DNA from: Halichondria panicea
Lineage: Eukaryota; Porifera; Demospongiae; Suberitida; Halichondriidae
DNA: 64,000 bases
Assembly: GCF_963675165.1 (NCBI RefSeq)
Contig: NC_087379.1
Span: 7,036,339 to 7,100,338 of the forward strand
Reading direction: 5' to 3'
Shown: one piece after another, positions 2,803 to 64,000 of the stretch
Numbering within the stretch: the first letter of the stretch is position 1
How the letters are laid out: each line of letters begins with the position of its first letter
Program-made: the position numbers and the translations under genes
The notes under the pieces: generated by a model
Seen by the model: the letters and a program-made list of their open reading frames with translations, nothing else
Database searches by the model: none
Told to the model about the DNA's origin: nothing

Positions 2803-3280
2803 GGTTATGAACTTGGTTCAGTATTTCTTTTATTTATCAGAAAAATTGCTTTTACACAACATTACATCACCAGTAAAGGAATTTTCTGCGCATGTCCATA
2901 TTGCACAACCACGCTGCCTACTCTCACTGACCCCCACCAGATTGGCTGACAACTGACTGAAAAGCTCACCTTATCAAGAAAGCAATACATTGACGAGGTA
3001 ATGTATAGCTTCAATGGAAGATCTACGTATGCACCAACTAGTAGTGGTCCAACTAGAGTGTAGGGTAGCTTGAGCTACGTACCACCCCTGTCATAAAGTT
3101 CTAGGTGTGGTCTGTTTGCCCTATTTTTTAAGGATGGTATATATATATATGGGGAAAAGTGGTTGAGCTCTGTAGTCTATAAAACATACTATATTGCGGT
3201 GTCCCGTACCGTAAGTATTGCATCATTCCGTTTAGTATTGATAAAAAATTATTATCTTGCTGGCCGGCCGTACAGGTGAA
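2803..3280. promoter_or_regulatory. Upstream region of eIF5A
   Basis: This 478-bp stretch precedes the eIF5A start. It has a short TA run (TATATATATATAT near 3137-3149) that could serve as a TATA-like element, and a GGCCGGCCG stretch about 20 bp before the ATG. I see no coding region. The promoter role is inferred from position. Confidence 0.35.
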
Positions 3281-10619: not shown

Positions 10620-10686
<67 letters not shown>

Positions 10687-17883: not shown

Positions 17884-18100
17884 CTACAGTTGGGCTGTAT
17901 ATTATGTGTGCGTTAAAACCTTGCAGCTCAACAATACTACCATACTCTGACAGTCATTTTTTTACAGTATAATATGTAGTACTAGTATCAACCATATTAG
18001 CACAATGCCATGCACTTACTGGCTCACACTGAGCTAGCTGTGATGTGTATTGATCAAGCATGAATGCTAGTCTCGCGAGCAGACTACATGAATGCATGGC
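17884..18100. other. Gap between PXYLP1-like gene and gene A
   Basis: AT-rich 3' flank of the phosphatase gene without a recognised feature. The conserved upstream box of gene A follows. Confidence 0.4.
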
Positions 18101-18163
18101 ATGAATGTCAGTAAGGAGGGGTCCAAACAAAGGGGCGTATAAACGTAGCTACTTTCTAAGAAA
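18101..18163 (+). promoter_or_regulatory. Conserved proximal upstream box of gene A
   Basis: ATGTCAGTAAGGAGGGGTCC, then AAACAAAGGGGCGT, just before the ATG. Nearly the same sequence precedes the start codons of genes B (35291-35343) and C (60033-60087). It may be core promoter or 5' UTR; the conservation may simply reflect recent duplication. Confidence 0.45.
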
Positions 18164-21100
18164 ATGGACATACACAGTGCTGCCCTCATTGGTGACTTGA
18201 GTGCTTTAAAAGATGCCATCAAGAGAGGAAAGGATGTCAACAGTGTGAATAAGGTAAGCTGGTTTGTGGGTATGTAGAGCTGAAGCTGTGAAAGTCTGTT
18301 TTTGCTACTGTCATGCTAATTAATAATAATATACGAATGTACGATATCCCTTGATTCCATGCTTTAGTCTTGTCCCCAAATATTGTCTGTCTATCTCAAA
18401 TGAGAGGTAAGGTCATCGGTTACCATACAGCCGTATTTCAGGCTACATAATTTATAGTAATGAGGGAGCAAACCACTTCAGAACCATACTGTGGTGATAG
18501 ATAGTTGATGCATGTGCTCTGTCACCAGAATAACTGTGGACATGGAAAATTGAATTTGGTGCGACTATTATTTTTGGTCGTGTGTAGATTTTAATCTGCT
18601 GTCGCTCAACTACGAGCTAGCTTGCTGAAAGGTTAGAGTTAGTGTTATGTACTTTCGTGCGTGGGCTAAGTCACTACTGAGCCAATATATCCCATGTGGC
18701 ACTCGTGCATGTGTCACAACTATAACATAAAGTTTTCTAATAACATAGCCGGCATTATATAGATAGTTGCATTTTCATTTTTCGTGTCCAACCTCCTCTG
18801 TAGTTTTATATAGTAGCTGGACGAGCAAGAGTTAGCTAGCTACAGATCTACCGACAGTTAGTGTTCCTACGATGGCCGAGAAGAGTCACCTGCATCCGCC
18901 TACCACCACAATTAACTGTGCACGCTTAAAACCAATGTCAATCTGTGCAAGGTCAAAGGTCAACGAATAATGTCTGCATTCTAATTAACGCAACGTATTA
19001 CTTTTGTTGAAGTGACCATTGATGAGGTGGGTTGGTCCCAGAGGAGGTTGGACACGATTACGTACACCACTTTTTTTGCTGAGCTGACACAAAAATTGGC
19101 AATGAGTTCTATGTAAACTTCTAGCTGATGTTGCACGGTCATTGGAGACTGAAGGCAAACTTTATGTGCCTCTCTGGCTTCTTTTGATATAAAACTTTCA
19201 TTAACCAACCCGATCCCCTCTATTCTGACGAGCATACAGTGTTTTCTAGATTCTTGTCAGCCAGTACAGTGCAAGCTGCATACAGCACCGCTGAACTATA
19301 CCGTACCCTATAGTCTAGCTAATCTTGGTCCAGGCAGATGGACTACAGACACAGCTAGTCCGGTGTTACAAGTCAGCAAAGCAAGAGTATCCATAACTTT
19401 TTTATTACAGTGTTATTCGGTATCTATGGTAACTTTAAGCAGAGACCTTAGGAATGTCACATGATTGATGACGCGTGGCCAACCTCCTCTGGGTTGGTCC
19501 TACTATACTATCCTATAGTGATTCAACACTCTTCAAGAGTAGCTCTAGAACTAAATCCAACCTACCTGCACTGTGCATCGATGTCCATTTCAACAAATTA
19601 ATACGTTGCGTTAATTAGAATGCAGACAACCTTGTGCAGACTGACCTGAAAATTTATTCTTTGTTCCTTTACTTTATTTATGTTTTGTCAATATTTATGA
19701 TGCTCTCACTCTTGTAGGATGGGCGGACTCCACTCTATTGGGCAGCCAGCTATGGTCACACTGACTGTGTTAAAAAGCTGCTCTCCTCAGGAGCTGTAGT
19801 GGACCTGGCTGACATGGTGAGTATCTGATACTAAACTGATGTGTCTATAGTACAGTGGCCCTGAGGTACACACATAGTAGGCTCGAGGCTACAGCAATTC
19901 TCTACATCAATTCAACTGAGGTCAGCTCCATTGAACTGAGGCTATGGCAATTCACTACTTTTGTAAGAAAATGACTAGGGGTCTTTAATATTACAAATTA
20001 AATCAGAAATAAGTCTCCAAGCAAGTTTGTGAAGAACTAAGGGGGTGGATTAGTGTAACGGAATAGTTACCTATAGGCTAGCTAATGACTCTATATACCG
20101 TTGAGGTCTGTAGCCTCTGCTTTAGCCATGACACAGACAGACAGAGTGTGATTTTCTATTTAAAACACACCTGATATAATTATTTCTAGGGAGTTGAATT
20201 GACGTAGAGAATTGTCGTAGCCTCGAGCCTACAATGTGTGTACCTCAGGGCCACCGTACTATAGGCAGCATGTTCGTGACCATGCATGTACTTACAATTA
20301 TGGACGTTGCCGGCATTTTGAATTAAAATTAACCTTATTATGTTTTGCCTATAAGATGTACTTATCTTGCTTATTAATTTTGTGTTTAAGTTGATAAACT
20401 GGGCTACATACATTTTCTTGCATGTTGTACTCTATTACCGATTAAAATCATAGACTATAATTATAGTGATACATTATACAGTATATACTAGCCTCGTTCT
20501 CAGGCCGAGGTGTCTCTAAAATAACGCTAGATTGCCATGCAACTAGGCCTGGGGAAGATTGCATATGGGCGTGGTTTCAATTTGTTTAGATCCAACAAAT
20601 TTCAATGATTTTTCCGTAAAAGCTGCCGTAATCACAAAAATAGCTCCGTGTTACAAAGCTAACCTAGCTAACTAGCTAGCTAGCTATTAGATCTAGGTGG
20701 TAGCTATCAAGTTGTGTCAAACAAGAGGCCCCCCTCAATGAGCGTCAGGTCCAAGCTGTCAACTCCAGTGTGAAGGAAGGGACATTTTGTGTGGTTCCCT
20801 ACTGTGCTACCAGTTGCTGCAGACAATGAACTTGGAAGCCATTAGCTCGATCTACCTGGACATATAGCATAGGTGTATTTTGTGTTGCTAGGGTTATAAA
20901 CTAGTTATGACACGTGCACTCGGGATGCATGGTGTATATTGCACTCAGCCCTCGGGCCAATATCATATTTCTTTGTCATTTCTCTTAAACAATAATTATA
21001 TCAGATACAATCTATCCCAGGCCTAGTTGGCGACCTAGCATTATTTTTGAGACAACTCTGCCTGGGAACGAGGCTAAGTATATACATGCAGTTGTAGATG

Positions 21101-23657
21101 TACTGTACAATGTATTATGAACTTACGTGTGCTGACAATTACATTTCCCTGTGGATTTTAGTGCTTTAAACTGACGTACTAGCCGGTTTATTTACATGTA
21201 CTGTACTAGCTGGCTTAATACGTATGACTGTTGTGCTTGTGTTCTCACTCTAGGATGTGGTTGGAAATGTAGAGCAGTGAATGTCTGTATTGTTCAATGT
21301 ACATTCATATTGTGTTATCACTGTCTCCACTCTTGCAGGATGGGGACACTCCACTCATGAGGGCAGCCAATGGAGGGTACACTGACTGTGTTAAAAAACT
21401 GCTCTCCTCAGGAGCCGTTGTGGACCTGGCTAACAAGGTGAGTATCTGATACTAAACTGATGCGTCTATAGTACAGTGGCCCTGAGGTACACACATAGTA
21501 GGCTCGAGGTTACGGCAATTCTCTACGTCAATTCAACTGGGGTCAGCTCCATTGAACTGAGCAATTCACTACTTTTATAAGAAGATGTCTAATATATTAC
21601 AAAATCAGATATGAGTCTCCAAGCATCTCTAAGCAAGTTTGTGAAGAACTAAGGGGGTGGATTAGTGCTAACGGAATAGTTACCTATAGGCTAGCTAATG
21701 ACTCTATATACCGTTGAGGTCTGTAGCCTCTGCTTTAGCCATGACACAGACAGACAGAGTATGATTTTCTATTTAAAACACACCTGACATAATTATTTCT
21801 AGGGAGTTGAATTGATGTAGAGAATTGCCATAGCCTCGAGCCTACTATGTGTGTACCTCAGGGCCTCCGTACTATAGGCAGCATGTTCGTGACCATGCAT
21901 GTACGTACAATTATGGACGTAGCCGGCATTTAGAATTAAAATTAACCTTATTATGTTTTGCCTATAAGATGTACTTATCTTGCTTATTAATTTTGTGTTT
22001 AAGTTGATAAACTGGGCTACATACATTTTCTTGCATGTTGTACTCTATTACCGATTAAAATCATAGACTATAATTATAGTGATACATTATACAGTATATA
22101 CTAGCCTCGTTCCCAGGCCGAGGTGTCTCTAAAATAACGCTAGATCGCCATGCAACTAGGCCTGGGGAAGATTGCATATGGGCGTGGTTTCAATTTGTTC
22201 AGATCCAACAAATTTCAATGATTTTTCCGTAAAAGCTGCCGTAATCACAAAAATAGCTCCGTGTTACAAAGCTAACCTAGCTAACTAGCTAGCTAGCTAT
22301 TAGATCTAGGTGGTAGCTATCAAGTTGTGTCAAACAAGAGGCCCCCCTCAATGAGCGTCAGGTCCAAGCTGTCAACTCCAGTGTGAAGGAAGGGACATTT
22401 TGTGTGGTTCCCTACTGTGCTACCAGTTGCTGCAGACAATGAACTTGGAAGCCATTAGCTCGATCTACCTGGACATATAGCATAGGTGTATTTTGTGTTG
22501 CTAGGGTTATAAACTAGTTATGACACGTGCACTCGGGATGCATGGTGTATATTGCACTCAGCCCTTGGGCCAATATCATATTTCTTTGTCATTTCTCTTA
22601 AACAATAATTATATCAGATACAATCTATCCCAGGCCTAGTTGGCGACCTAGCATTATTTTTGAGACAACTCTGCCTGGGAACGAGGCTAAGTATATACAT
22701 GCAGTTGTAGATGTACTGTACAATGTATTATGAACTTACGTGTGCTGACAATTACATTTCCCTGTGGATTGTAGTGCTTTAAACTGACGTACTAGCCGGT
22801 TTATTTACATGTACTGTACTAGCTGGCTTAATACGTATGACTGTTGTGCTTGTGTTCTCACTCTAGGATGTGGTTGGAAATGTAGAGCAGTGAATGTCTG
22901 TATTGTTCAATGTACATTCATATTGTGTTGTCACTGTCTCCACTCTTGCAGGATGGGGACACTCCACTCATGAGGGCAGCCTTCTGGGAACACGAAGATA
23001 CTGTGAAGGAGCTTCTCTCATCAGGGGCTTCCCCTCTCTGCACTAATAATGTGAGCACATGTACTTTTAGAGTACATAGTTGCGTAGTTATACTTAACAA
23101 ACAGCTTTACATGTACTGTACACCTATACCTCTTACAGTAGTTAATGACTGAACAGAGCTGTCATTTGTACCTAAACAGATATACCCAACCTCTTAATAT
23201 GCAATTATCGTTGCCAGTATTGCTCTGTCAGAAAAGTACATGTCATACGCATTAGACCACTTTACCTCTTACAATGTACGTCTCATCCCTTCATATGATC
23301 ATCATCACAGGATGGACAGACTGCTCTGATGGTGGCCAAGAGATCACAATTCTCTAACCCTTCAGTAATACAGTTGCTTGAGGAAGCTGCTGAATCACAT
23401 GTGAGTCCATACCTCAATAATGCACACACTGCATGATCATGATGGTGTTTTAGTTTATTGTGCCGAATAATTAAATAGTGCATACATTATTATATGTACA
23501 TCGAATAAACTGTATGTCCTTTCTTTTACGAGTATTTTGCTATTTGGATAATTAAGCTCTAAATACTGTCCATTTAATTGCAATGGAGTGCAAACTAGTA
23601 CAGTTCCAATATTACACACACCTAAACAAGCATGAATACCATTACATGTGCCCCCCC

Positions 23658-23706
<49 letters not shown>

Positions 23707-26700
23707 GCGCGCGCGCACACACACACACACACTACTATCTATTTATTTTGACTAATGCCTTGTGCTAATTCTAAGAACCAAAATTAGAGGTTAATGATTG
23801 TTTTGTGCTTGCCACCTAGAAGAACCACATAGACCCATCCCCATTATCAGATACTACCACCACAAAACCTAGCCCAGACAATACAGGCCTGTACCTTATA
23901 AATTAAGCCTCCCTCAAGGTCAGATTTAGTTTACACAAGTACATAGCCATGCACAAGCTAAGTTAAAGTATTACAGCAGCCAATATCAAGTCTAAGATAA
24001 GTTCTATACTTTATGTCAGCATTACAATGTACCTCAAATGTGAATATAGCTTACAATCAGCATGGCCCCAAGTGAATAGCTTCCAATAATTATTCAGTAT
24101 ACTAGTTGTTCTGAATGCAACAGATGAATGGGGAGGGTTGGTGCACCGTTAAAGACTCTTTAACCCATCATTCTCGACTCTCAAGGTTGGGCATCTGTTT
24201 GCCTTTTCTACCTGTACGATTTTGTGCTGTTTGCTCTTTTGTTCTCCTTTTTTCTTTTGCTTGCCTAACTAGATAGGATAATACAAGGTATCAAGGATCC
24301 ACCACTATAATATTAGAACATCAGATGCCAACCTTTTAAAGATTAATTTAAGTGAGCATTCCGTTTGAGCTATAGTAACGCTAACAGTTGACACAATTTC
24401 TCCCACACAAATGATACTTTTGTATACCCTCAAACACACACACACACACACACTCAGTTATGTCTGCAGTCTGTTCCAGTCCTACCCAAGAACTGGACTG
24501 TCGTCACTGACACAGAAACGTGAGTGACTATTGTACAGTTTAGTCACTAGCTTTTATGAATGTGAGTCAACTTTAGGAAGAAGCCAGTCTACCAGAACAA
24601 GGCAGCAGGGGAAACCCTATCCACACCACCTGGATGTAAGTGTTGTGCTTGTGCTGTATCTAGCACATGGTTCTGTGTGTTTTACCTCCTGTGTACATGT
24701 AGATCCCCTGCACCAAACCTCCGCATACCCTGATGTCACTTTCTACGACATGCCTCAAGAGAAGGAGTTCACCTCCAGTGGTGGCCACGCTGACTTTGAC
24801 AATGGAGTGCAAGTGACTGTTTCAGCTAATGCTGTCCCAGCAGGGACCTCTGTGAGCATTAGTGTCCAACCCAGCCTTGCTTCAAATGACGTGTTTGTGA
24901 TGCCTGAGGGCATTCAGTCTGCCAGTCCGTCCTACTTGATCTCTGGTGAAGGTCTAAACGGAGAGGTGACCCTGAGCATGGAGCATCATGTACGCGTGTC
25001 CACCCAACAAGAAGCTGATGACCTCCTCTTTCTCCAAGCTGACTCGTCTCCCAAGAGATCTGGATCAAAGAGTATATACCAGTACCAGGTACAAGAGGGA
25101 GGGTCGAAGGCAGAGTTCACTCCTGGTGGGAACACTGGGAGACTGACCAGACGTTTGTCAAAGAAGAAGTTTTTCAAAGTTGGGGCTCGAATTAAGAAAT
25201 GGTTTCGAGGTGAGTGTATAAGGAATGTGTTTGTAGTGTGAGTGACATGCTTTTGTTGCAGGTTCATCCCAACTTGCTGCCAGCCAGCCTGATGACCCCC
25301 CAGAGCCTGAGAGTCCACCTAACCTCTACACTGTCAGAGTCTACCGGTCTCCGCCGCACACAACTGAGGACAGAATGGCTCTTGTCATTGTCAGCTACTT
25401 CCACCGGCTGTTTTTCGATGTACGTACATTGCAGAGTAAAGTTTTGTGATTCGTTTAGCACTGTACATAAATAACTGTTTTCCCATTATAGTTCTTGCAG
25501 AGGTTTGAGGTTGTCGTCATTCCCCGAGAGTATCCACACTTGTCAAGTAGCCCTGCTGATAAGACAATCAAACAACCTCTTTGCTTTGTCCAAGTTGATG
25601 CAGTACTGGAGCTAGTCTGTGACCCAGCCTGGAGGAGTGTGCCTGACCAGAGAATGGTGAGTGCTTTCAATAGTTATAGAAAAAAAACCGTTATATCGTA
25701 AGTGACTTTTCCGCACTTTTTTGTGTCTTCTATTAATTAATTTTTGCCGTGTTTACAGATTTCCCAAGATGAAGTAGACTTGCCAGTGATTGGTAAGTTC
25801 TCGCCAGAGGAGCTTCAGTGTTACCCACCCAGGATAGTGTGTCGGTTCTTCCCTGAGCAAGGAGCTGTCTCCTGCACCACATGCAATCTCTCACTGCATG
25901 GCTTTGACAAGCCAGTCAGTGTGGACATGGCACTGCTCACTCCTCAGAGATCAGTGGACACTAAACAACTCAAGGTGTTTCACTAAATCTCTGTTAAAGT
26001 CAATAATTATAATTATGAATGTTAGATACACTTCACTTGTGCCACATCAACCCAATGTTCTGCATCATCCTACACTTGTAAATTTTGGCTAATGAATGTC
26101 CGTAATGTAGTATGTTGCTTCCATAAGACCCACGTCTGTACTGTGTGTACTGCATGTGGACATGTGGACGTTCTCAATTCGTTATAATGCATGTACCGTA
26201 TAGCAGGTTATTTTCGTACGGTAGAAGTTTTCGTATTTTTCGTATTGTATACATAATCAACATTATCATTGGAAAATTAAAACTGCGCTACCGCGATAGG
26301 TTCAACGTCACTATCCTGAGCTGTACGAGTATTTAGAATATGAAATATTTGATTGGGCAGTTCATACGAACATTTACCAGTATGTATGTGATTGTAGGAA
26401 GCCACTGAAGTACTGAGGAGAACAGTTGGTGAGATGACCACCTCACAGCTTGGCTCTACTGTGGAGACTGTACTGTCACTAATGGAAAAAATGACAACTG
26501 CACTTCAGTGAGATGTCTAGTATTTTAATGGTAGCACTTTATTTACAATATCTCCCACCTCAGGTCATCTTCTCTGAGTGAGCTGACAGCCTACACTGAC
26601 TCCATACGGACAGAGATAAAGGCAGTCCTTGTAGTGACCAGGAGGGTTGTCCAGGAGTGCACAGTACAGAGCATCAGTGAGAACATGGGAGCCAGTCTCT

Positions 26701-29700
26701 CTAAGATGGAGACTTTATCTCACCAGCTTTGTCATGTGACCAAGGTCAAACTCAGATACTGTCTAGGTGAGAACGTGTGTTTATGATATCAAGTGTTAGC
26801 TCTCATTCTCAATGGTACAGACCAGTCAGAGGAGACAGCTGCTCTTGTTGACCTGGTGGAGAATGGAGCTAATCTGTTGAGAGCTGTAGACTGTCTACTC
26901 AGGGACATCCACACACTCAGTGGAGTCAGTGGTGAGTGTAGATTGTCAGAGTCTGTGTATCCAGTATCTACCTACCGTATAGCGGGTATATTTCGAGGGT
27001 ATAAATTTTCGCGGAAATGCCTTTAGAAATTAATGTTTTCGCGGATTTGATTTTCGTGGAATAGCAGCCTTTTTGCAACATGCATGCATACGATATTAAA
27101 TTTGCGGTACATGCTTAATCCATGACAACCACGAACATGTATACCCTCTATACGGTATTATGTTTTGATTTTAGATCAATGATACTCTGCTGCTCAACTG
27201 CAACCCCCCTCCCTCCGTTTCTTTCAGCTTCCATAACATGGCAGTTACAGTAGGATACCATGTTTGAATTTTAAATTCCAAGAGGGGGTAAACCAAATCC
27301 AAAGGAGGGTGGCAAAAGCCTCCCTAATTTCCCCCTGCCAATATTCACGTACAGTCTTTTGTCGAAATTTGCTGTTTTTTTTCCTCCCAAAACTTATAGC
27401 CAAAGAATAATTATTTATATCTGGAGGCATAAGTGTTCTATGTACTGCAGATAATTCACATATCCATTATAATGATGTCTCCAACATTGCCACTACAATG
27501 TGGAAGCTGCTTTGGTGTTATGGTAATTGTTCACTCCACTAATCAATGTATAATTATAGGACCATCCGCTAAACGAGTCACTCTTCAAGAACTAGTAGAG
27601 CAATACAATCTGACTGACGAGCAACTCAACAGTGAAATAGAAGACTCTGAAACTCCCGAAATGGCCTCATGTTTTGATGATGTGGACCTTTATTCGAGTT
27701 CAATGGGGCTAGGTATTGCTGATCAAGCCGATGTGAAGAGGTTGTACCATAGTGAAGGTACTCGAGCAGCCATGATGAAGTGTTTGCAAATCTGGAAAGA
27801 ACGTAATCCTTTTCAAGCAACTTACAGAGCTCTACTGGATATCGCACTGAGATTGGGGAAAGGAGACACAGCTCATCAAATCTGTCAGCAATTGATCCAA
27901 CGTAAGTACATGTACACATGTTACTACATGTCAGGTGACAAGCCCCCTCTACTAAGTAGCTATTCAAAATTTGGCTCAAGATTGAAATCGCAACAGAGAA
28001 GGCATTTGCCACAATCCCTATGATTGTGTGTATATACCATCATGCGTGCTTGTACACCTCCCTCCTAGACTGCACTGTTGAGTACTAGTGTATGAGAACC
28101 TCACCAAACTGATATACTGATTGTCTCCATATTGTACAGGAGGTGTGAGAGGTGTGGTCACTGGCTCGGACTGTATACAGGTATCCTGCATGTACTGCTT
28201 GTATACAGTTTAGCTGTACAATAGATACTGAGTGTTCAACTTAAGTTAATTCAACTAGCGAGTATTTACATTTTGCTGTATACCGTATAGCGGGTAATTT
28301 TCGTGGGGTAAAAAATTCGTTCAATTAAAGAAACGGTGATTTGCGTGAGTAAAATTTCGTTTAGTCTCGTTGCTTGCCTGCATTCCTACGTTTGGGTAAG
28401 CCACGCCTACGTTAAAATTTCGTGGAGGCCAGCTTGCCCATGACAATAACGAATATTTACCCCTCAAAAATTACCCGCTATATATACGGTACATGCACTG
28501 AAACACAGTGATTCTCACAGTCTAATTGTACTTGCTTCCTCAGGTTGAGGCTGGCGTTGCACGGAAGGTTCCGACTGTAGCCAGGACTGTGGTGGACATT
28601 GATGTGCGTTTATTTGTTACGTACTTACATTGTAATTATAGCTTTAAGTTAGCACAATTAACCGTGTATATACACTGCTAAATGTTGCTTGGCTTACCTA
28701 CATTGTATGCATATCCATGTTACAGTACTGTATGTTTGCTTAATTATCTTCTGTAGGAAGCCACTGAAGTACTGAGGACAACAGTTGGTGAGATGACCAC
28801 CTCACAGCTTGGCTCTACTTTGGAGACTGTACTGTCACTAATGGAGAAAATTACAACTGCACTTCAGTGAGATGTCTACTATTTTAATGGTAGCACTGTA
28901 TTCATAATATCTCCCACCTCAGGTCATCTTCTCTGAGTGAGCTGACAGGCCACACTGACTCCATACGGACAAATGTTACGTCCGTTCGTCAACTGGCCGG
29001 GAAGATTGTCAAGGAGTGCAACATTGGAGCCAGTCTCTCTAAGATGGAGACTTTATCTCATCAGCTTGGACGGTTGGCCGAGGACAAACTCGAAGACTGT
29101 AAAGGTGAGAATACATTGTACCAGGGTTTAGGGCAGGGGATTAAACTTCCCCTAAAAACATTTTGTGCAATAATGGCATCAGGGTTTCATACAGGATTTT
29201 TAGCTGGGAGAGGGAAACGTTTAATTAAGGGGGGTCTGAGGGTCCTCTCCCGGAAAAATTTTTGAGGAATGGTTATCTGAGGTGCAATTTGGGTTTTTGT
29301 GTGCTTCAAACCATACATTTTACTATAGCCTATAATAAGATTGTAGATATTTTAATGGAGAAAAGTCATACATTTTTATTATGACATCATTAATTTTCAG
29401 ATTTCTAGGGGGGGGGGATTTTGGCTGGGGGTAGGAAATCTCAGGCCCCCCCCCCTCTGTATGAAACCCTGCATTGGCATCATCAACAAAAACCAGTTAC
29501 AAGTAGACTCTACTGTATTAAACACTGTGATATGTACACTATTATCTCTGCCCTACTATAATGCATATAATGGACTCAGGGTTTCATCTAGTGGGGGGGG
29601 GGGGGGGAGGGGGGGTCAGGGGTGAACAATCACACTAATATGCTCAGCTTCCTCCTTGTAGAATAATGACATCATCACATTGGTAATGTAGGTACATGTA

Positions 29701-35124: not shown

Positions 35125-35343
35125 TTTGTCTACACGTACGTACATATACATAATTATGATTATTACGATTGTGCGTACCATCATTCTTTTTGTACTTGAG
35201 ATTAACCTTGAATTTATACATGTACTCACTTAATTGTTGCATGTTTGAGCTGAAGCTGTGAAAGTGTAATTATTATTGCATATTGATCAATGAATGTCAG
35301 TAAGGAGGGTCCAAACAAAGGGGTGTGGCTACTATCCAAGAAA
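35125..35343 (+). promoter_or_regulatory. A-B intergenic region with conserved upstream box of gene B
   Basis: 219 bp between the stop of A and the ATG of B. It is nearly the same as 59864-60087 between B and C. It must hold the 3' end of A and the start of B. The box GTCAGTAAGGAGGGTCC at about 35297 is shared with A and C. Confidence 0.45.
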
Positions 35344-46999: not shown

Positions 47000-47060
<61 letters not shown>

Positions 47061-53000: not shown

Positions 53001-56000
53001 CAATTGTTGTATTAAGTGTTCACTCCTGTTATGTCCTTTAAAATGTCACAAATTCCATCAACGTCTACTTGTGACTCTTCCAACTGCGTTTTTACCTCTC
53101 TAAACTCAGTTCTTAGTTTTTGGACAAGTTCCACCAAATTTTTCACCTGTTGTTGTAGTTCATACAAGGCCACTGCAGTGAGGAACACAAAATTTGTGAA
53201 TCTAACTTGCATATAATACAGTAGTATAGTACAAATCGTCACCTTGGCCTTGGGTGGCTGAAATTTTCATTTCAGACATTGAGGGGAGGGCTTCTGTTGA
53301 CTCAACAGCCTGTGTATAATGCATATGATGATCACTGACATTTCGTAATGTTTGTTACTTTGTTAGGCCACTCCAAGTGATACTCTGGTTTCTGGTCCAC
53401 CCCCCGCATCAGATTTTATTCTATCTCATTATTGGATTTCTATCTCATTATTTCTACTACGCATGCGCGCAGAATGGTCCATGTGGTTACAAAATAGTGT
53501 GATAATGATATTCATTTGCAAAATAATGAGATTCATAAGGTGAAATTGATAATGACATAATGAGAAAAGCCGCCCGCCCGCATGCAATTAGAAAAACTTC
53601 AGGACCAGAAACCAGAGTGTCACTTGGAGTGGCCTTACGGAGTAGAATCTAGAAAATATTGAAAATAAACAAAACTAAAAATACATCGGATGTAGTTTGG
53701 TGGTTACATGGGACAATTCTCCTTTTAATTATTATCATAGATACATGCACCAATCTACTTCACAAAAATATGGTGAGGAAAGCAAATGCACTGACACTTT
53801 TATTTTTACAGCATCAAAACAACATTTTCAATTTTTGGTTGTAGTTGTAAAAAATACACCAGGCTTTGACAACTAAATACAATTTGTTCAATTCTGCTCT
53901 AAACTACTTACCTTGAAGTGTAGAATTGCAGCACAAAATTCCTTTATCTATGCTTCAAAAAAAGTTTTGAAATTTAACTTTGAAGTGTGCTTTCTTTAGA
54001 GTGGAAATATTGCATGCAAGCGCATAGTTGTGGTGAGAGTTAACGGGTGCTATTGTGCAAGAAAGAAAAGGTATTTCAACGCGAAATTTTGGCTGCCTGC
54101 TTTATTTTAGTTGCTTTGTATGCACAATCACTCAAAACACCATTTTTCAGAAATCAGATTTTTTTTGTGGAAACAACCCTACTCTACGTCTATTTCTTTC
54201 TTTATTCCTCCAATTAATACCGTATTTTATCTCATTGAACGATAAGACAGTATTTTATCTTATTGAAAGATGTGATAAAGAACAGAAAAAGGAGAGCCTG
54301 TGTAGAGGCTAGGATTTTATGAGTTGTCACTAGTAGATCTATTCTGTCAAGTTTTCCAGTATCCAGTGCAACTGTGCTTTATATAGATAGTGAATAACCA
54401 TTATTCAAGCTCTATTTACCGTTGCAACTATCTTCTTCATTGAATTTAGGTAAGTTTAATCTTGTATTGTACACATTTATCCCTTTTTCTCTGAAATGAT
54501 TAATGTTTAGGTAGTATACTTCAATATGCTTGTTGGTAAATCATGTGGTATCACCCCAAGCCAAAGAAAATTAGTCATACATCAGCTGGTAGAATTTAGT
54601 GCTAGAAAAAAGTTGAATTAAAGAGCACCACTAAAGATCCCTTTTTTGGGAATATGCTAAGCGTTACAGAAATTTTAATTTTAGGCATACATTCCCTTAT
54701 GATTGGTGATCACCACAAGAGCATTAGTTTTGGATTAGGTGGATGTATAGCTTTTGTGTGCATGAATGTGTAGTCACCTATTTTTACCTCATAATTGTTA
54801 TTGGCCCGGTAGTTAGATTGTGGTGAAGGGCCTGTAGGCCCGAGATATTTAACTACTACAAATGCTGTTTCATCTATATTTTATATAGCAATACCTCGCA
54901 AGCCAAAACTTACTGAGTACGCTGAAGAAAAGAAGACAGAAGAATACCCCTCCTCTCTACACCCTATACGTCACCGCCCTCGTAAATGTTATCGGCTGTT
55001 CCGGCTATATATACACCCTTGTATACCTCACCAGCTTCTCTCCATCTAAGACTGTCTGATTAGAGTGCTAAACTAATCATAATTATAGCTGTAATAATCA
55101 TTTTTATCGTGTATGTTTTTGTTAATGTTGTTTGGTTTGATCCCACTCGTTTTACACTTAGAAAGCAACTGGCAGTGCTGTGGAGTGTTTTGCTGTCTCC
55201 AAGTGTATGTAATTATACTTAATGAATTGGAAATTGAAATGTACGCTCACCAGCCTAGTATTATTATATAGAAACTTCGTACAATTGATTCATCAAAAGT
55301 GAAAACAATAATTAAGAAAGTTACATGGTGTATTATGTATCTTGTCGTATGAATGATCATGGTTATTGCCTCAAACTAGTGGACTTCTTGATGGTTTTTT
55401 TTTTCATTTAATTAAGTTGGCAGCAAAAGAGAAGCCTCTGACAGTCACAAATACATTCACAATTTCAGGGAACTAAGCATCCTCTGATGATTTTATATCT
55501 ACTGTGAAAAAAGTATCCAATACCACTAGCTCTGCACATTCTCCTTACTATTACCATGTACCAATGCACTGTTGATTGTGTCTCTTTCCCTATTCTTTCA
55601 CCGCTTATGCAATGAGTTTTCCTCATTTGAGGCAAGAAAAGAAGACAAGAAAGCGAGGCGCGGATGTTTTCCGAGGCCCACTTCCGTTTCCAATCCCTCT
55701 CTCCTACTAGCCTCGTTCCCAGGCCTTACTTTTTCTTGCTGTTGTCACTGTTCATCCATAAACATAAGAAAGACATAGTGAGGCAGCAAAGAAAGAAATG
55801 GGCGTACAGTTAAGAAAAAGTAAGGCCTGGTTTGGGAAATCGCGTGATCCACAAGGATTTTTATGAACGTGGGAGATATGTAGCCCACAATCGTGACGTA
55901 AGGTATTCTCCCACGCATTCCGAGTAAGACTGTACTGTACTGCACTGAGACAACCACCGGCACCAAGCTGTGCTGCAAGTCAGATCAGAGAACCAGCGTG

Positions 56001-59000
56001 GCCAGCTCTGGTGGCAGTAGCTACCTGCTATGATAATGATGACTAAGCTATTCTACTATAGCATGTAGAAAGACACAAGAAAAGGTAATAGTGATAGAAT
56101 CTAAGCACACAATCTAGACTAGTAGATCATCTAGCTAAGCTTAAGGTATAGCTAGCTATAGTGCTTGCAAACTTCCAGTTCCAAGTCCATGTCCAGCTTG
56201 CTGCAGGCAAAGTTTTACTACAGTTCATTTAGTCTAGAGAGTAGATTACCACAAATGTGTGAGTAGTTGAACTTAAATGTAAATATCTTTTGATTGGAGC
56301 ATTTCTAAGAAATGGTGTTGATACCTGTGTGTAGATGAATGACTGAACTATAACATATCCAAAAATGTTCCATAGAAACATAAGATGGTGGGTTTGTGAT
56401 GATTAACATAAGATGGTGGGTTTGTGATGATTAATAGAACAACAGCAAATTGTTATAGTGGGTAATCGGTTAGAGTAATAAAACACTAACTTTAAACAGC
56501 TAAGGTCTTAGACTTTTATCACGCAATAGTTTAATGGTTTAGGTATCCTGACCATCCCTTTATGGGTCTTACATATGCTCACAGTGTCTATAATTCATGA
56601 TTTACCGGTTTTTAGGTACACTTTTGGTTAGAGTAATATCTTCTGAAAATTTTATAGCTTAGCTTTAAAAGTTCTCTGGTAAGTTTACAAATAAATGGGC
56701 TACATTTTGATACCAAGAACATCCTCTATGCTTATTCCATTGTTGAGATATCACTGAAAAACTACATATTCTACTATTTTCTACTGTTTTGATGACATCA
56801 CAAGTGCTAACCACAAATTGATGACACTTAAATTAACCACGTAAGTGGGCGTACAATAACTGTACGCCCACTTTTAATTACGTTTGTGGTAGACCTCTGC
56901 GTGGGCAGTCCAACATCTCTAGCTCAGTATGCCCACGCTCATTTTCACCCTTCTACCACCCTTCTACCCTCACGTGACTTCCCGATACAGGCTCTCCTTT
57001 TTCCTAACTTTACGTCTATTTCTTTCTTTATTCCTCCAATTAATACCGTATTTTATCTCATTGAATGAATAATACAGTATTTTATCTTATTGAACGATTG
57101 TGATAAAGAACAGAAAAAGGAGAGCCTGTGTAGAGGCTACTCTCCTACATCTATGACCAGACTCAAGCTTTTAGGTTGAGGCGGGTATTCGAGACTACTG
57201 CATGTTGGTGCAACTTACAGAGCTCTTGTGAAACTACTCCTAAGAAGGAAATATGACATTTCTAGTAAAGTGTTTCAAACATTGCCAAGAGAATGGTAAA
57301 CTTACATAGTACATGTGTAGCGTAACATAATCTGTTTTGTGGTGGATCCATGCTTGTGAGTAGAATTTGAATGCTCCTAATTTATACTAGGGATGCATTT
57401 GTGAGTCAGAAGTATGTGATCCTCTATCTGCCTACATTGTACGAGAGCTTAGCTTACAAGCCCCCTCATAACAATGACCTCAAGGACTGATAATGCATTT
57501 ATCATACACATGAGTTGTGTCACATGACTATGTGCTACTGTTTCAATGTTACAGTGTTGTACAGTGCGTGAGGTGTATGCCAAGTTCACCTCCATGCCAT
57601 TGTCACTGAGGTGACGAGTACTGTCTCAATACTAGCCCTTTAAAATGTACACATTTACAATCTGGCCACTTTAATTACAAGTGGTTGTTAACGTGAGCTA
57701 GTTTTGTAGTAGCTAATAGCAGATTTACTTCTGTTGGAGAGTCACATTTCATTTCTACCATTTGCTCACTGTACATGCAGGCGTATAAGTCGGTTGTCAT
57801 TTGAATATTCCTTCTCTTAATTAGAGTGTGTGAGGAGGAGGTCAAGGCGAGGATGGGATTGGTGGAGTGTGTCAACCACAACCTAGTGGAGCCCTACCAT
57901 CATCTACGAGAAACACGGTGACTATGTACTCTGAACCTTCATACCTTGGTTACTACACAGCTAACAAGTGTTTAAATCTAGTGCCTGGATAGTCTGTATC
58001 AGCAGTTGTATTATATAAAGTGAAACCTCCGAAAATGTGTGCAGCATTTATTTGTGACGTTTGTTCTCTGTATTGAGTCTGAGGTGGTCCTTTACAGTGG
58101 TACCTAGGAAAGTGATCTTGTAGACTGAAGCAATGTCCTTTGTAGCTACACAGAGAGATGTTTAATTGAGTGTCCTTTATTCAGAGGGTCCTTTATCAGA
58201 GGTTCCACTGGTATTCATATTGATGTTGGTACTGTGTTTCCTGTGTAGGTGAGTATGTTGCACAGATGAAGTTCACTCTGCTGCTAATGCCCAATGGACC
58301 ACAAAGGTGAACATCTGAAACTCTCCTGCCTGTACAATTCATGTTGTGTAGTGCAGGCTGTGTGTATGACAGCGTTCTGTAGTGCATGAGGTTTGAGGTG
58401 TACGTACGTATGACATCATTGCCATTGTTTGTCTGGTGTGTTCATGCACTGTATTGGTTTGATTGTGTGTACACTACAACATTCAGTGATTGTCATTCCC
58501 CACAGACTCACCAGTGGCTCCTTTGACCCTGCATGAGCTAGTGTCTTCACAGCTGAAACTGGAAGACCCTCGACTGAATGTGAGTACATACAAATTAGCT
58601 CTATTGATTAGGACAGTGTGTTATTTCATGGGAAATTCTCTAAACCTGTTCCAAGGTCTGTTTCAAAGCTTTTAGAAAATCATAAAAATTGGGAAATTAG
58701 ATCAATGATACTAGTTACGTCCATTGAAACCCTCCCTCCGTTTAATTGCTCCTTGGAGGGTGAGCCGGACCATGTTTGATGACTGGTTAGGCAGCCCCTC
58801 TAATTAATTAGAGGAATGCAACCCGCTAATTAAATAATAATCAGGCGTTTCTATTTCTCCCCTAATTAAGTACTTGGGGGTAAAGACATGGCCTAGCCAC
58901 CAGTCATAGCTTCAGCTCAGTCATGCCCTAACCACATGCAGAGAAGTTTACCCTAACCCTTAACAACAGATATAAAGAGCAAGCATTACTATACAGTATC

Positions 59001-59863
59001 CTATAACAATTAAATACAGGGAATTCAAGTCCCCAAACCATTGAGCTTTTAGAAAATCATTGACAACGATGCTTATTTATAGCAAGAGCACTTATCTACT
59101 CTTGGTCACGGCCATTAAACTGCAACCCCCCCCCCCCCCATCCGTTAATTAATGGTTCGGGGACTCTTTTAGCTGCCATGCAAAACTTGAATTCCCTGTA
59201 TTGAAAGTCTCTTTAAAAACTCATCAAAATTGGATAAGTTACTGCCATTGACAGTTGTTCAACCCTCCCTCTGTTTAATCAATGGTTTGGGACTCTTTTA
59301 GCTGCCATATAACTTGAATCCTTAGGTATTTAATTTTTAGTGTATAGAAAATAGCTAATGCTTGCTCTTCATATCTGTTGTTCCATATTCCGTTCCATTC
59401 CGCATTCCTCCTTTTACAACATGCCTTTCCACTTCCTCCTATTGTGTACTACCAGCCATATACAGTGTATTGTACATGTACTGAGTCTATTTGTTCACAT
59501 TACACGTACTTAGGTCTCCAGTGTGTGGGCGTATCATGCTCTAACCATTTCCTCTCTCCTGCAGGTAACGCTGGCTACAGTGTGCTGGTGAGCTGCAGTG
59601 AGAAGATAGTCCAGTCACTCTCTGAGGACCCGAAGGCCTTGGCCCTCCACCTCCTGTCAGCTGGGCTCATCACTGTGTCCATTCTTGAGAAAACCAACGA
59701 GTATGTGAATGAGACCAAGAGAGAGAAGGCCACCAGACTGTACACTGCCCTGCTGGGTGTGGTCAAACACCACCCCCACAAGTACCACGAGTTTGTCTCC
59801 ACTCTCAGACTCAACCCACTACACACTGACTTGGTCACACAATTAGATAGCAAGTACACGTAG
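35344..59863 (+). CDS. Gene B: ankyrin repeat - ZU5 - death domain - CARD-like protein
   Basis: Exons I read: 35344-35433, six ankyrin exons, 45930-46019, 46391-46457 (weak GC donor), 47085-47124, 47182-47240, 47302-47811 (ZU5), 47864-48021, 48094-48258, 48362-48577, 48994-49103, 49166-49368, 49402-49533, 50003-50317 (death domain) and 59565-59863 (CARD-like). All phases fit, giving 1015 residues. If the donor at 50318 is not used, the protein ends at TAG 50329-50331, right after the death domain, so two isoforms are possible. ZU5 and middle exons are almost identical to gene A. The intron before the CARD exon is 9.2 kb and full of nested transposons plus a PA2G4-like fragment. Probably a cytosolic adaptor or sensor; the function is inferred from domains only. 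Confidence 0.78.
37553..46019 (+). other. Ankyrin repeat exon block of gene B (six repeats plus cap)
   Basis: Six 99-bp exons at 37553-37651, 39208-39306, 40833-40931, 42491-42589, 43754-43852 and 45025-45123, then the 90-bp cap 45930-46019. All are phase 0, one ankyrin repeat each. They differ mainly just before and after the TPL and AA positions, while the second half ([16 protein letters not shown]) is nearly fixed. Repeats 4 and 5 lie in units of 1263 and 1271 bp with almost identical introns, the youngest duplication seen here. Confidence 0.93.
45124..45929. repeat. Intron of gene B with an inserted dispersed repeat
   Basis: Gene A has about 260 bp at this place. Gene B has an extra stretch of about 500 bp (about 45305-45815) that contains the inverted copy of the CTAATTAATTAG/GAGCCGGACCATG repeat of 34010-34160. 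No gene is seen in it. Confidence 0.55.
46994..47059. repeat. (CA)n microsatellite in gene B intron
   Basis: More than 30 CA units; the equivalent place in gene A (24433-24452) has about ten. It lies just before the acceptor of exon 47085-47124. Confidence 0.92.
47302..47811 (+). other. ZU5 domain exon of gene B
   Basis: Same domain as in gene A with very few changes: SIKVQ instead of SISVQ, and one extra codon (YQYQEVQEGG against YQYQVQEGG). The near-identity over the exon and its neighbours indicates recent duplication or gene conversion between A and B. Confidence 0.82.
50003..50331 (+). other. Death domain exon of gene B
   Basis: GLAERIDIEHPLLNNEIE at the start, then FDNVILYSQMLGLNRSQQAS, and ECLSLWQRSNPAAATYRTLL, KLLVRMKKHEIASDVFKHCL. 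This has the helical layout and Trp/ATYRxLL signature of a death-fold domain. The alternatives at its end are a stop (50329-50331) or donor A|GTAAAC at 50318, which joins the CARD exon in phase. Confidence 0.75.
50638..50718. repeat. Perfect 81-nt hairpin in gene B
   Basis: Arms of 40 nt around the single central base 50678: TTGGTAAAGATCGCCAATGC on the left and GCATTGGCGATCTTTACCAA on the right match exactly. Gene A (about 31610-31657) has only one arm, in a shorter form. Confidence 0.92.
50770..51165. repeat. Foldback element in gene B
   Basis: CCACTTGACCTTAGCTAATT on the left mirrors AATTAGCTAAGGTCAAGTG on the right. Arms of about 170 bp flank a short centre near 50965. Absent from gene A. 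Confidence 0.8.
53012..53183 (-). other. Possible coiled-coil exon in the foldback element
   Basis: After a plausible acceptor (TTCCTCACTGCAG) the minus strand reads VALYELQQQVKNLVELVQKL, then EFREVKTQLEESQVDVDGIC and DILKDITGVNT before TAA. It is a Leu/Val/Glu-rich coiled coil. The opposite arm carries a decayed version near 52679-52790. It may be the last exon of a transposon or captured host gene; not recognised. Confidence 0.4.
53366..53634. mobile_element. TTA-flanked Harbinger-like MITE
   Basis: GGCCACTCCAAGTGATACTC at the left, AGTGTCACTTGGAGTGGCC at the right. TTA on each side (53363-53365, 53635-53637). The other arm of the surrounding foldback shows the unoccupied site. The 3-bp TWA-type duplication is typical of PIF/Harbinger. 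Confidence 0.85.
54321..55640. other. Unassigned interior of the 6-kb insertion
   Basis: AT-rich sequence without long ORFs or recognised motifs. A short basic open stretch at about 54895-55050 (PRKPKLTEYAEEKKTEEYPS) resembles nothing I can name. Confidence 0.4.
55708..57139. mobile_element. TAGCCTC...GAGGCTA element, third copy, with extra insert
   Basis: Flanked by CTCTCCTAC (55699-55707, 57140-57148). Compared with 32112-32874 it carries an extra 0.67 kb (about 56217-56885) whose ends include ATTACCACAAATG and its near-complement CGTTTGTGGTAGA, perhaps another small transposon. Confidence 0.88.
57565..58579 (+). pseudogene. PA2G4: PA2G4 (EBP1)-like C-terminal fragment inside gene B
   Basis: Pieces at 57565-57610, 57825-57917, 58249-58306 and 58506-58579, the same four as in gene A and with the same phase break and frameshift. 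The second piece reads VKARMGLVECVNHNLVEPYH, slightly closer to animal PA2G4 than gene A. It lacks the 763-bp transposon of gene A. Because the lesions are shared, the fragment decayed before A and B separated. Confidence 0.75.
59565..59863 (+). other. CARD-like domain exon of gene B
   Basis: Encodes the same 99 residues as 34826-35124; I find only a silent change. Such strict identity, in contrast to the very different death domains of A and B, suggests recent copying or conversion of the 3' part. Confidence 0.72.
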
Positions 59864-60087
59864 TTTGTCTACACGTACGTACATATACATAATTTATGAT
59901 TATTACGATTGTGCGTACCATCATTCTTTTTGTACTTGAGATTGACCTTGAATTTATACATGTACTCACTTAATTGTTGCATGTTTGAGCTGAAGCTGTG
60001 AAAGTGTAATTATTATTGCATATTAATCAAACATGAATGTCAGTAAGGAGGGGTCCAAACAAAGGGGCGTGGCTACTATCCAAGAAA
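59864..60087 (+). promoter_or_regulatory. B-C intergenic region with conserved upstream box of gene C
   Basis: 224 bp, nearly identical to 35125-35343. Contains GTCAGTAAGGAGGGGTCC and GGGGCGTGGCTAC shortly before the ATG of C. Promoter role inferred. Confidence 0.45.
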
Positions 60088-63000
60088 ATGGACGTACACA
60101 ATGCTGCCAGTGTTGGTGATTTGAGTGCTTTAAAATATGCCATCAAGAGAGGAGAGGATGTCAACAGTGTGAAGGTAAGCTGGTTTGTGGGTATGTAGAG
60201 TTGAAGCTGTGAAAGTCTGTTTTTGCTACTGTCATGCTAATTAATAATAATATACGAATGTACGATATCCCTTGATTCCATGCTTTAGTCTTGTCCCCAA
60301 ATATTGTCTGTCTACCTCAAATGAGAGGTAAGGTCATCGGTCACCATACAGCTGTATTTCAGGCTACATAATTTATAGTAATGAGGGAGCAAACCACTTC
60401 AGAACCATACTGTGGTGATAGATAGTTGATGCATGTGCTCTGTCACCAGAATAACTGTAGACATGGAAAATTGAATTTGGTGCGACTATTATTTTTGGTC
60501 GTGTGTAGATTTTAATCTGCTGTCGCTCAACTACGAGCTAGCTTGCTGAAAGGTTAGAGTTAGTGTTATGTACTTTTGTGCGTGGATGGATGATGTCAGA
60601 TGCAACCACTCTTTATTATGCTAATCCCTTTCCTTTATGGTCTATCACACAGATGTGTTATCTTGTATGCTCTAACTCTTGTAGGATGGGCAGACTCCAC
60701 TCTGTTGGGCAGCCTATAAAGGGCACACTGACTGTGTTAAAAAACTGCTCTCCTCAGGAGCCGTGGTGGACCTGGCTGACAAGGTTAGTGTCTGATACTA
60801 AACTGATGTGTTTATATAGGCAGCATGTTTGTGACCATCACATCATTAAGAATTATTTACATGTACCGTACTCACCTGAAAATACACCCCCTTCGAATTT
60901 ACGCCCCCCTAGCCAGAGCAGGAAATGTATTGCAGAGGTATTTTCTACCTCAATAATACGCCCCCTAACCCCATCTAATTATGGCAGGTTCAATAATAGC
61001 TCCTGTTAGATCTAAACATAGTTTTATCAGAGGAGGTTGGCCACGTGTCATCATTTATGTGACGTCTCTGCTCACGTTACCATAGATACTGAACAACTAT
61101 AAAGAAAATTATGGCTACTCTTGTTTTGCTGAGCTTATAACACCTGACTAGCTGTGTATGTTGTCTGGTTGGACCAGGATTAGCTAGACTATAGGGTAGA
61201 GTGTAGTTCAGCGGTGCTGTATGCAGCTTGCACTGTACTGGCTGGCAAGAATCTAGTAAACACTGTATGCACTGATAACTCGTCAGAATGGAGGGGATCG
61301 CTGGGGATCGGGTTGGTTAATGAAAGCTCAAAGTAGCCAGAGTTGTGTAAATTTTGCCTTCAGTCTCCAATGACCGTGCAACACCAGCTAGAAGTTTACA
61401 TAGAAATCATTGTCAATAAGCTGTGCCCACTCAGCAAAAAGTGGTGCACGTGATCGTGTCCAACCTCCTCTGTAGTTTTATAGTAGCTGGACGAGCAAGA
61501 GTTAGCTAGCTACAGATCTACCGACAGTTAGTGTGGCCGAGAAGAGTCACCCACCTCCACCTACCACCACGATTAACCGCGTGCACTTAAAACTAATGTC
61601 AATCTGTGCAAGGTCAAAGGTAAACAAGTAATGTCTGCATTCTAACTAAGGCAACGTATTAATTACTTTAGTTGAAGTGACCATTGATGAGGTGGGTTGG
61701 TCCTACTATACTATCCTATAGTGATTCTAGACACTCTTCAAGAGTAGCTCTAGGACCAAATCCAACCTACCTGCACTGTGCATCGATGGCCATTTCAGCA
61801 AAATTAAATACGTTGCGTTATATAAGTAGTCGTTGACCTTGTGCAGACTGACCTGAACACTTGTTGGCGGTTCTTTGTTCCTTTACTTTATTTATGGTCT
61901 ATCACACGATGTGTTGTAACTGCATGCTCTCACTCTTGTAGAATGGGGACACTCCACTCTATTGGGCAGCCAGGAGAGGGAACACTGACTGTGTTATGGA
62001 GCTGCTCTCCTCAGGAGCCATGGTAGACCTGGCTAACAAAGTGAGTACCTGATACTAAACTGATGTGTCTATAGTACGGTGGTCCTGAGGTACACACATA
62101 GTAGGCTCGAGGTTACGGCAATTCTCTACGTCAATTCAACTGAGGTCAGCTCCATTGAACTGAGGCTATGGCAATTCACTAATTAATAAGAAGAGGTTTT
62201 CAATATTGCAAAATTAGAAATGAGTGTCCAATTATCTCCAAACAAGTTTGTGAAGAACTAAGGTGGTGGATTAGTGCTAACGGAATAGTTACCTATAGGC
62301 TAGCTAATGACTCTATATACCGTTGAGGTCTGTAGCCTCTGCTTTAGCCATGACACAGACAGACAGAGTATGATTTTCTATTTAAAACACACCTGATATA
62401 ATTATTTCTAGGGAGTTAAATTGACGTAGAGAATTGCCGTAGCCTCGAGCCTACTATGTGTGTACCTCAGGGCCACCGTACTATAGGCAGCATGTTCGTG
62501 ACCATGCATGTACATACAATTATGGACGTTGCCGGCATTTTGAATTAAAATTAACCTTATTATGTTTTGCCTATAAGATATACTTATCTTGCTTGTGTTT
62601 AAGTTGATAAACTGGGCTACATACATTTTCTTGCATGTTGTACTCTATTACCGATTAAAATCATAGACTATAATTATAGTGATACATTGTACAGTATATA
62701 CTAGCCTCGTTCTCAGGCCGAGGTGTCTCTAAAATAACGCTAGATCGCCATGCAACTAGGCCTAGGGAAGATTGCATATGGGCGTGGTTTCAATTTGTTC
62801 AGATCCAACAAATTTTGATGATTTTTCCGTAAAAGCTGCCGTAATCACAAAAATAGCTCCATGTTACAAAGCTAACCTAGCTAACTAGCTAGCTATAGGT
62901 ATTAGATCTAGGTGGTAGCTATCAAGTTGTGTCAAACAAGAGGCCCCCCTCAATGAGCGTCAGGTCCAAGCTGTCAACTCCAGTGTGAAGGAAGGGACAT

Positions 63001-64000
63001 TTTGTGTGGTTCCCTACTGTGCTACCAGTTGCTGCAGACAATGAACTTGGAAGCCATTAGCTCGATCTATCTGGACATATAGCATAGGTGTATTTTGTGT
63101 TGCTAGGGTTATAAACTAGTTATGACACGTTCACTCGGGATGCATGGTGTATATTGCACTCAGCCCTCAGGCCAATATCATATTCTTTGTCATTTCTCTA
63201 GCTGTATTTTCATTATGGACATAATTTTACAATATACCAGATACAATCTATCCCAGGCCTAGTTGGTGACCTAGCATTATTTTAGAGACAACTCTGCCTG
63301 GGAACGAGGCTAAGTATATACATGCAGTTGTAGATGTACTGTACAATGTATTATGAACTTACGTGTGCTGACAATTATATTTCCTTGTGGATTGTATAGT
63401 GCTTTAAACTGACGTACTAGCCGGTTTATTTACATGTACTGTACTAGCTGGCTTAATATGTATGACTGTTGTGCTTGTGTTCTCACTCTAGGATGTGGTT
63501 GGAAATGTAGAGCAGTGAATGTCTGTATTGTTCAATGTACATTCATATTGTGTTGTCACTGTCTCTACTCTTGCAGTATGGGAACACTCCACTCATGAAG
63601 GCAGCCAGTGAAGGTCACACTGACTGTATTAGGGAGCTGCTCTCCTCAGGAGCCGTGGTGGACCTGGCTGACAAGGTGAGTATCTGATACTAAACTGATG
63701 TGTCTATATAGACAGCATGTTCGTGACCATCACATCATTAGGAATTATTTACATGTACCGTACTCACCCGAAAATATACACCCCCTTTGAATTTACGCCC
63801 CCCACTAGCCAGAGCAGGAAATGTATTGCAGAGGTATTTTCTATCTCAATAATACGCCCCCTAACCCCATCTAATTATGGCAGGTTCAATAATAGCTCCT
63901 GTTAGATCTAAACATAGTTTTATCAGAGGAGGTTGGCCACGTGTCATCATTTATGTGACGTCTCTGCTCACGTTACCATAGATACTGAACAACTATAAAG
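60088..64000 (+). CDS. Gene C: ankyrin repeat gene of the same family (5' part only)
   Basis: The start exon 60088-60174 ([20 protein letters not shown]) is 29 codons, one shorter than in A and B. Ankyrin exons are 60685-60783, 61942-62040 and 63577-63675, all 99 bp and phase 0. The last one is identical in its variable residues to repeat 2 of gene B ([17 protein letters not shown]). The window ends in the following intron, so ZU5 and death-fold exons are not seen. The first exon pair is separated by only 510 bp, against 1.5-2.1 kb in A and B, because intron 1 of C lacks the transposons found there. Confidence 0.85.
61028..61472. mobile_element. CAGAGGAGG-ended element, 445 bp, 9-bp target duplication (gene C)
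   Basis: Left CAGAGGAGGTTGGCCACGTG, right CGTGTCCAACCTCCTCTG, flanked by TAGTTTTAT (61019-61027, 61473-61481). The left part of a further copy with the same left flank begins near 63925 and runs out of the window, as expected of a duplicated unit. Confidence 0.85.

Follow-up and report, generated by a model that had tools for sequence, protein, structure and literature searches.

What kind of protein is encoded by neighbouring genes that join variable ankyrin repeats to a conserved core and to death-fold ends, and what might such proteins recognize? The question is raised by a tandem gene array in the window analysed here, a stretch of 64,000 nucleotides (nt) of the 131-Mb genome of the sponge Halichondria panicea (contig C3, C3:7036339-7100338). 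The window holds three plus-strand units, gene A (18164-35124), gene B (35344-59863), and gene C (from 60088 past the window end). The reading as sensors or adaptors, put forward in a preliminary description of this stretch, fits the data best: we consider it rather probable that the genes encode intracellular recognition proteins with a variable ankyrin surface, a conserved core, and death-fold ends, in which binding of a ligand would release signalling against microbes or non-self.

Organization of the array

BLAST comparison of the window with itself bore out the proposal of three same-strand neighbours with a common start exon, common ankyrin exons, and near-identical intergenic DNA. The start region of A (18101-19232) is 96.3% identical to that of B (35290-36399), and 18100-18664 is 95.0% identical to 60032-60585 in C; the ankyrin exon/intron units are about 88-99% alike among themselves; and the ZU5-to-helical part (24431-26951 in A, 47036-49553 in B; 97.3%) as well as the CARD end with its intergenic DNA (32868-35843 and 57608-60585; 97.8%) recur almost unchanged. 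A and B had been thought to share the whole 3' part from ZU5 to CARD; this stands for the ZU5-to-helical part and for the CARD but excludes Death, because the Death exons of A and B are different versions (38% identical, next to a core that is about 97% identical in DNA). Tandem Repeats Finder (period up to 500) reported no tandem array with a score of at least 150 in 18000-64000.

Gene A was assembled from 16 exons (898 amino acids) and gene B from 19 exons (989 amino acids in its long form), with GT/AG junctions and consistent phase, in place of the initially predicted lengths of 1015 and 1069 residues; the Death and CARD exons named at the outset (27560-27901, 50003-50317, and 59565-59863) are exactly exons of the assembled models. 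The two proteins are 84% identical over their alignment. Gene A agrees end to end (99.6%) with the NCBI model LOC135333968 isoform X2 (P0001, 902 amino acids), the sole difference being four residues at one alternative acceptor; the NCBI gene models used for comparison are themselves predictions. No protein identical to B was among those returned by the homology search. An open reading frame at 26300-26383 (B twin 48896-48979) was dropped as a chance frame because the intron following it would measure 14 nt and because it is absent from NCBI's model of A. The intron first placed at 26767-26793 (27 nt) gave way to one of 54 nt that ends at 26820.

In gene A, exon 1 (18164-18253; identical in P0001) carries the start codon and the ankyrin N-cap and is followed by three ankyrin exons of 99 nt each in phase 0 (19718-19816, 21339-21437, and 22952-23050), the last repeat (23311-23400), a WW-like linker of two exons (24470-24519 and 24577-24635), the ZU5 exon (24703-25209), a UPA-like region (three exons, 25262-25974), a helical region (three exons, 26398-26931), the Death exon (27560-27901), and the CARD exon with the stop codon (34826-35124). 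Gene B, placed by self-BLAST and exon assembly, consists of exon 1 (35344-35433), six 99-nt ankyrin exons (starting at 37553, 39208, 40833, 42491, 43754, and 45025), the last repeat (45930-46019), the WW-like, ZU5, UPA-like, and helical exons (47075-49533), the Death exon (50003-50317), and the CARD exon with stop (59565-59863). Gene C contributes its start exon (60088-60174) and ankyrin exons at 60685, 61942, and 63577, the last ending at 63675.

Diversification of the ankyrin face

The ankyrin repeats are the best-supported domains of the proteins (Pfam Ank_2, E 1.4e-30 in A and 2e-69 in B), and their exons carry the most informative variation. The comparison comprised 35 exons from the window and from fetched loci that passed a sequence filter, with 300-nt flanks, the other genome copies being excluded. 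Codons 1, 3, 7, 8, 11, 12, and 14 were taken as face codons, those of the expected binding face; because they were chosen after the first tables, which omitted exon 22952, the group of eight exons described below is not independent of this choice, and the group of six exons is.

In the eight internal exons (six in the window and two of gene C beyond it), the common upstream intron differs by 1.4% in mean pairwise comparison (11 of 290 sites segregating), as against 33% per site in the seven face codons (17/21 segregating) and 8% in the remaining codons (16/78). The proportion of nonsynonymous differences (pN) is 0.362 on the face and 0.058 in the rest, and the proportion of synonymous differences (pS) is 0.137 overall. 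The six last-repeat exons behave in the same way (introns 2.8%, face 33%, rest 6%; face pN 0.347 against an overall pS of 0.090), as do four exons with a common downstream intron (2.7, 25, and 8%). Random draws of seven codons never reached the observed value in 20,000 trials in either of the recent groups of eight and six exons. By Fisher tests, which take sites as independent, the recent pair B5-B6 has three exon changes, all replacing and all on face codons, against three in 1105 flanking sites (P 0.009), and the pair B4-B6 has eight against 40 in 1058 (P 0.0495); the pair B4-B5 shows no excess over the whole unit (five against 40 in 1195, P 0.26). As a control, the core from the WW-like to the helical part differs between A and B with pN 0.011, pS 0.033, and 0.018 in introns, and the CARD exon has no nonsynonymous and one synonymous change.

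Two observations weigh against a simple reading by selection on the face: fourfold sites of the ankyrin exons are also raised (4/15), and in 23 exons outside the window the face pN of 0.507 does not exceed the face pS of 0.554. Moreover, the contrast weakens when the face is defined by DARPin (designed ankyrin repeat protein) positions (12/21 against 21/78 and 9/21 against 16/78 segregating). Taken together, the patterns suggest that selected change of the face probably acts with exchange between repeats and homogenization of introns.

A conserved core and exchangeable ends

Profile hidden Markov model (HMM) searches found ZU5 and Death similarity, best over relatives, weak CARD similarity, and no UPA. 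The ZU5 exon of A scores 18.2 bits (E 0.0031; cut-off 21); each of the six aligned relatives gives a match at E ≤ 1 (best 4.2e-4), and relative P0002 exceeds the Pfam cut-off with 24.5 bits, A and B lying below it. The UPA-like region of A is assigned by position and predicted strands only: Pfam detected neither UPA nor a second ZU5 in A, B, or the aligned relatives, the structure model is poor over this region, and a ZU5-UPA profile searched against PDB sequences gave one unrelated match (E 0.71). Compared with A, the segment falls into two versions, of 75-96% or 41-47% identity, flanked by ZU5 and helical segments with mostly 74-95% identity. The linker resembles WW (E 0.035, below the cut-off), and the helical region has predicted long helices and weak Vinculin similarity (0.0028).

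An HFS/SFS-type motif is the self-cleavage site of PIDD and NLRP1. At the end of ZU5, read by eye on the alignment, an invariant F precedes T, S, or P, after which comes x-GG, with no HFS/SFS; self-cleavage of ZU5 was weighed but not adopted. Another ZU5 protein of H. panicea, P0022 (LOC135335907), has TSFSW after its ZU5 match, like that site, and in P0018 (LOC135336766) a PH domain replaces the ankyrins and is followed by WW-like, ZU5, UPA-like, helical, and CARD parts.

The Death exon of A (type A; phase 1-1, donor GTAAGT) matches Pfam Death at E 0.1, and all eight members of its alignment match at E ≤ 1 (best 3.1e-7). The Death exon of B (type B) scores 20.5 bits (E 5.3e-4; cut-off 22.6); it has a possible donor, GTAAAC, and when read through meets an in-frame stop at 50329-50331. 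A Death profile searched against PDB sequences placed PPR repeat proteins on top, through short repeated segments, with the Death domains of CRADD, RIPK1, and Fas at E 0.12-0.41. The C-terminal exon is predicted to have a CARD fold, an assignment based on structural alignment of the predicted model: the exon is modelled with a pLDDT (predicted local distance difference test) of 95, and CARD chains occupy the leading places of the structural-alignment list. Foldseek with this model gave no match at E ≤ 0.001 (best 0.17, an Apaf-1 apoptosome chain), the CARD HMM matched two of 24 copies (best 0.074), and CARD profiles against PDB sequences ranked the Dronc CARD (E 0.6 and 0.31) below unrelated matches. 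In a fold search with the full-length protein, ankyrin/DARPin chains took up the list of matches; it tests nothing after about residue 161.

A union of ankyrin, ZU5, Death, and CARD in one polypeptide had been claimed for the array; for gene A it is backed by the HMM matches, by the gene model made independently, and by the fold that the CARD exon takes in the model, and it is for A alone that Death and CARD together are supported. Among 20 aligned family models, one (A) ends in Death and CARD, eight in CARD only, seven in type-B Death only, two in type-A Death without CARD, and one in a divergent Death, one having neither. All seven type-B models end at the read-through stop or just after it, without CARD, in ENSKLT or ENSELT (6/7) or in EKEQ (P0002). 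A search with the end of A found ten further H. panicea proteins: eight (P0024-P0031) end in a Death 64-72% identical to that of A, P0023 ends in a CARD, and P0022 has three type-A-like Death stretches (33, 62, and 45% identical). A Pfam scan of five of the eight gave ankyrin in three, Roc/COR-A below the cut-off in four, and Ig-like matches in four. As judged from sequence comparison, the Death and CARD ends of the array family are exchangeable. Because several of the proteins ending in type-A Death also have ankyrin, Ig-like, or Roc/COR-like matches, modules move between families. P0021, a large protein, combines ankyrin repeats with an internal type-A Death and a terminal type-B Death.

Copies in the genome

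A whole-genome count, suggested at the outset, returned 136 exon-level matches to the ZU5 exon, 40 of them over the ZU5 part (29 on C3, seven on C6, and one each on C8, C14, C16, and C27; because the match on C27 has exactly the score of a C6 match, C27 may be a duplicate contig). These 40 matches and the variable face agree with the idea of a rapidly evolving family. The array was first seen as three genes, which is what the window holds; it runs on beyond, with ZU5 matches at C3:7061043 (A), 7083642 (B), 7109119 (C), 7137559, and 7148963, each followed by a Death match (C3:7063930, 7086337, 7112335, 7140922, and 7152004; that of C is 40% identical to the B exon). Among the matches listed, CARDs of the array lie at C3:7071160, 7095899, and 7146044, and none belongs to C ahead of the next gene. 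Some copies of the family are probably broken, because several of the genome matches contain stops. All database proteins matched at E ≤ 10 are uncharacterized H. panicea proteins; no homologue from another species was found at this threshold in a search that needs shared 5-residue words and in which two of three runs scored about 8,000 best candidates each. As far as searched, the expanded family appears only in H. panicea.

Caspase-like matches number 33 at exon level, and those listed do not lie at the C2 sites of CARD relatives, joining of caspase to CARD having been checked by position only. A ZU5 exon of the family at C3:7738867 is preceded, at a distance of about 26 kb, by Peptidase_C14 exon matches (C3:7711744-7712953).

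Proposed function and alternatives

Designed ankyrin arrays bind proteins through face positions like those that vary here, and in UNC5-type proteins the ZU5-UPA part keeps the Death domain closed. Because of such binding faces, designed and in fungal NLRs, and of the UNC5-type closure, we propose that binding of a ligand leads to release of Death or CARD and to homotypic assembly. The ankyrin array would be the recognition surface, each full repeat being a 99-nt exon cassette that duplicates with its intron, while the amino acids of the face are diversified and introns and framework stay near identical. The WW-like, ZU5, UPA-like, and helical core would link the ankyrins to one of two Death types, to CARD, or rarely to both. 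A ligand on the ankyrin face of a presumably cytosolic protein could free the autoinhibited end from the ZU5 core; the freed end might assemble on Death or CARD adaptors or on caspases and, by inflammation-like or cell-death signalling, set off a response to microbes or non-self. Ankyrin-repeat genes of H. panicea are regulated after lipopolysaccharide treatment and receptor expression is individual-specific, the array family not being named in the accessible part of that report (PMC8242945). More tentatively, the array may be a germline-diversified, NACHT-free receptor system, in which ankyrin cassettes comparable to natural DARPins, with selected change of the binding face and homogenized introns, receive their Death or CARD output by exon exchange or alternative splicing; it could then be a main anticipatory immune or self-recognition repertoire of H. 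panicea.

Three other explanations were weighed. Allorecognition is an unlikely one: the ankyrin face would match self ligands between individuals and the death-fold end would reject non-self cells, like fungal NLR incompatibility genes. Near-identical neighbouring repeats with variable concave positions are the pattern of fungal NLR ankyrin and TPR repeats, a family linked to non-self recognition in the accessible text (PMC4986451), and repeat number differs between A and B; one genome is covered here, in which nothing separates allorecognition from microbe sensing. Quite improbable is a role as duplicated ankyrin-like cytoskeletal or membrane scaffolds with Death and CARD ends for constitutive assembly: the order ankyrin-ZU5-UPA-Death is that of ankyrins, among natural proteins in the PDB the ankyrin part matches Ankyrin-1 best (behind a designed DARPin), and P0018 has its PH domain, but A and B have three and six full repeats plus caps rather than about 24, and neither face-focused diversification nor 40 ZU5-exon matches are expected of housekeeping scaffolds. 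Least probable is a family that duplicates fast and evolves for the most part neutrally, its introns homogenized and its ankyrin exons shuffled by gene conversion, with a variable face that reflects weak constraint. The raised fourfold variation, the incomplete Death and helical copies within A and B, and the genome matches with stops suit it, but replacements concentrate on the seven codons and exceed the synonymous level there, and core and CARD are constrained.

If the proposed recognition function holds, an early-branching animal builds a diverse recognition repertoire from ankyrin exons instead of leucine-rich repeat (LRR) or immunoglobulin parts and couples it directly to Death/CARD signalling without a NACHT switch, and the array offers a concrete gene set for the question of how sponges distinguish symbionts, microbes, and kin.

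Other features of the window

In the Death-CARD interval of A, parts of the helical exons occur a second time (28757-29111), together with Death-like fragments (about 30090 and 31616-31795). That of B contains a 97% inverted repeat pair (52017-52513 and 53676-54174), perhaps a mobile element; an interspersed repeat of about 0.5-0.65 kb occurs at 32108-32749, 51368-52013, and 55705-56217. Directly upstream of gene A lies a histidine-phosphatase gene (16402-17883, plus strand), the end of which may belong to the duplicated unit because the first stretch of the paralog model P0007 resembles the phosphatase C terminus. Further upstream are exons of a DNA polymerase phi/MYBBP1A-like gene (8859-13105, minus strand; Pfam DNA_pol_phi in four open reading frames), an eIF5A exon (3245-3571, plus), a tRNA-Arg (2728-2803, minus), a COX24_C-type protein (2072-2524, plus), and a leucine-rich repeat exon (796-1248, minus).

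Comparison with known systems

Vertebrate ankyrins ANK1-3, which bind spectrin, consist of about 24 ankyrin repeats, two tandem ZU5 domains, UPA, and Death. The array genes follow the same order with a UPA-like part. The preliminary description, which called the set with CARD non-standard for vertebrates, overlooked that ankyrin repeats, ZU5, UPA, and Death are the standard layout of ankyrins there; what is unusual is therefore the presence of a CARD, a WW-like linker, and a helical region, as well as the exchange of ends. The array genes differ from ANK1-3 in having three (A) or six (B) full repeats and one ZU5 seen, and in adding the linker, the helical region, the CARD, and a tandem family with a variable face. 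ZU5 followed by a C-terminal CARD may recall the FIIND-CARD layout of NLRP1/CARD8, UPA being placed by position only; the array proteins lack a NACHT match (Pfam, A and B, E ≤ 1), an LRR match, and a recognized HFS/SFS-type motif, and insert the helical region and an optional Death. PIDD1 and UNC5/UNC5CL have the order ZU5-UPA-Death as well, but the array genes carry ankyrin repeats rather than LRR or extracellular Ig/TSP domains (no Pfam match to either in A or B), and a CARD.

In sponges, large expansions that combine death-fold domains with repeats are known, and Amphimedon TRADD-N proteins often end in ankyrin repeats, according to the accessible parts of two reports (PMC12909245, PMC8195603); in the array the ankyrins are N-terminal, a ZU5/UPA-like core follows, and no NACHT or TRADD-N match is listed for A or B. 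The open-licence literature searched yielded no paper on the array family, or on this layout with its exon-cassette mode in an animal. A likeness in mode exists to fungal NLR ankyrin repeats of high internal conservation, which, in the text available, combine conserved repeats and repeat-number variation with variability of the inner helices and the beta-hairpin on the concave side, the binding interface to which variable and selected positions map (Dyrka et al. 2014, PMC4986451); the array differs in being NACHT-free, in its death-fold outputs, and in its repeats being separate exons with near-identical introns. Sponge death-fold/repeat expansions and fungal concave-face diversification are already known; if the proposed function is right, one layout would link inflammasome-like proteins and vertebrate ankyrins with the ankyrin-type non-self receptors of fungi.
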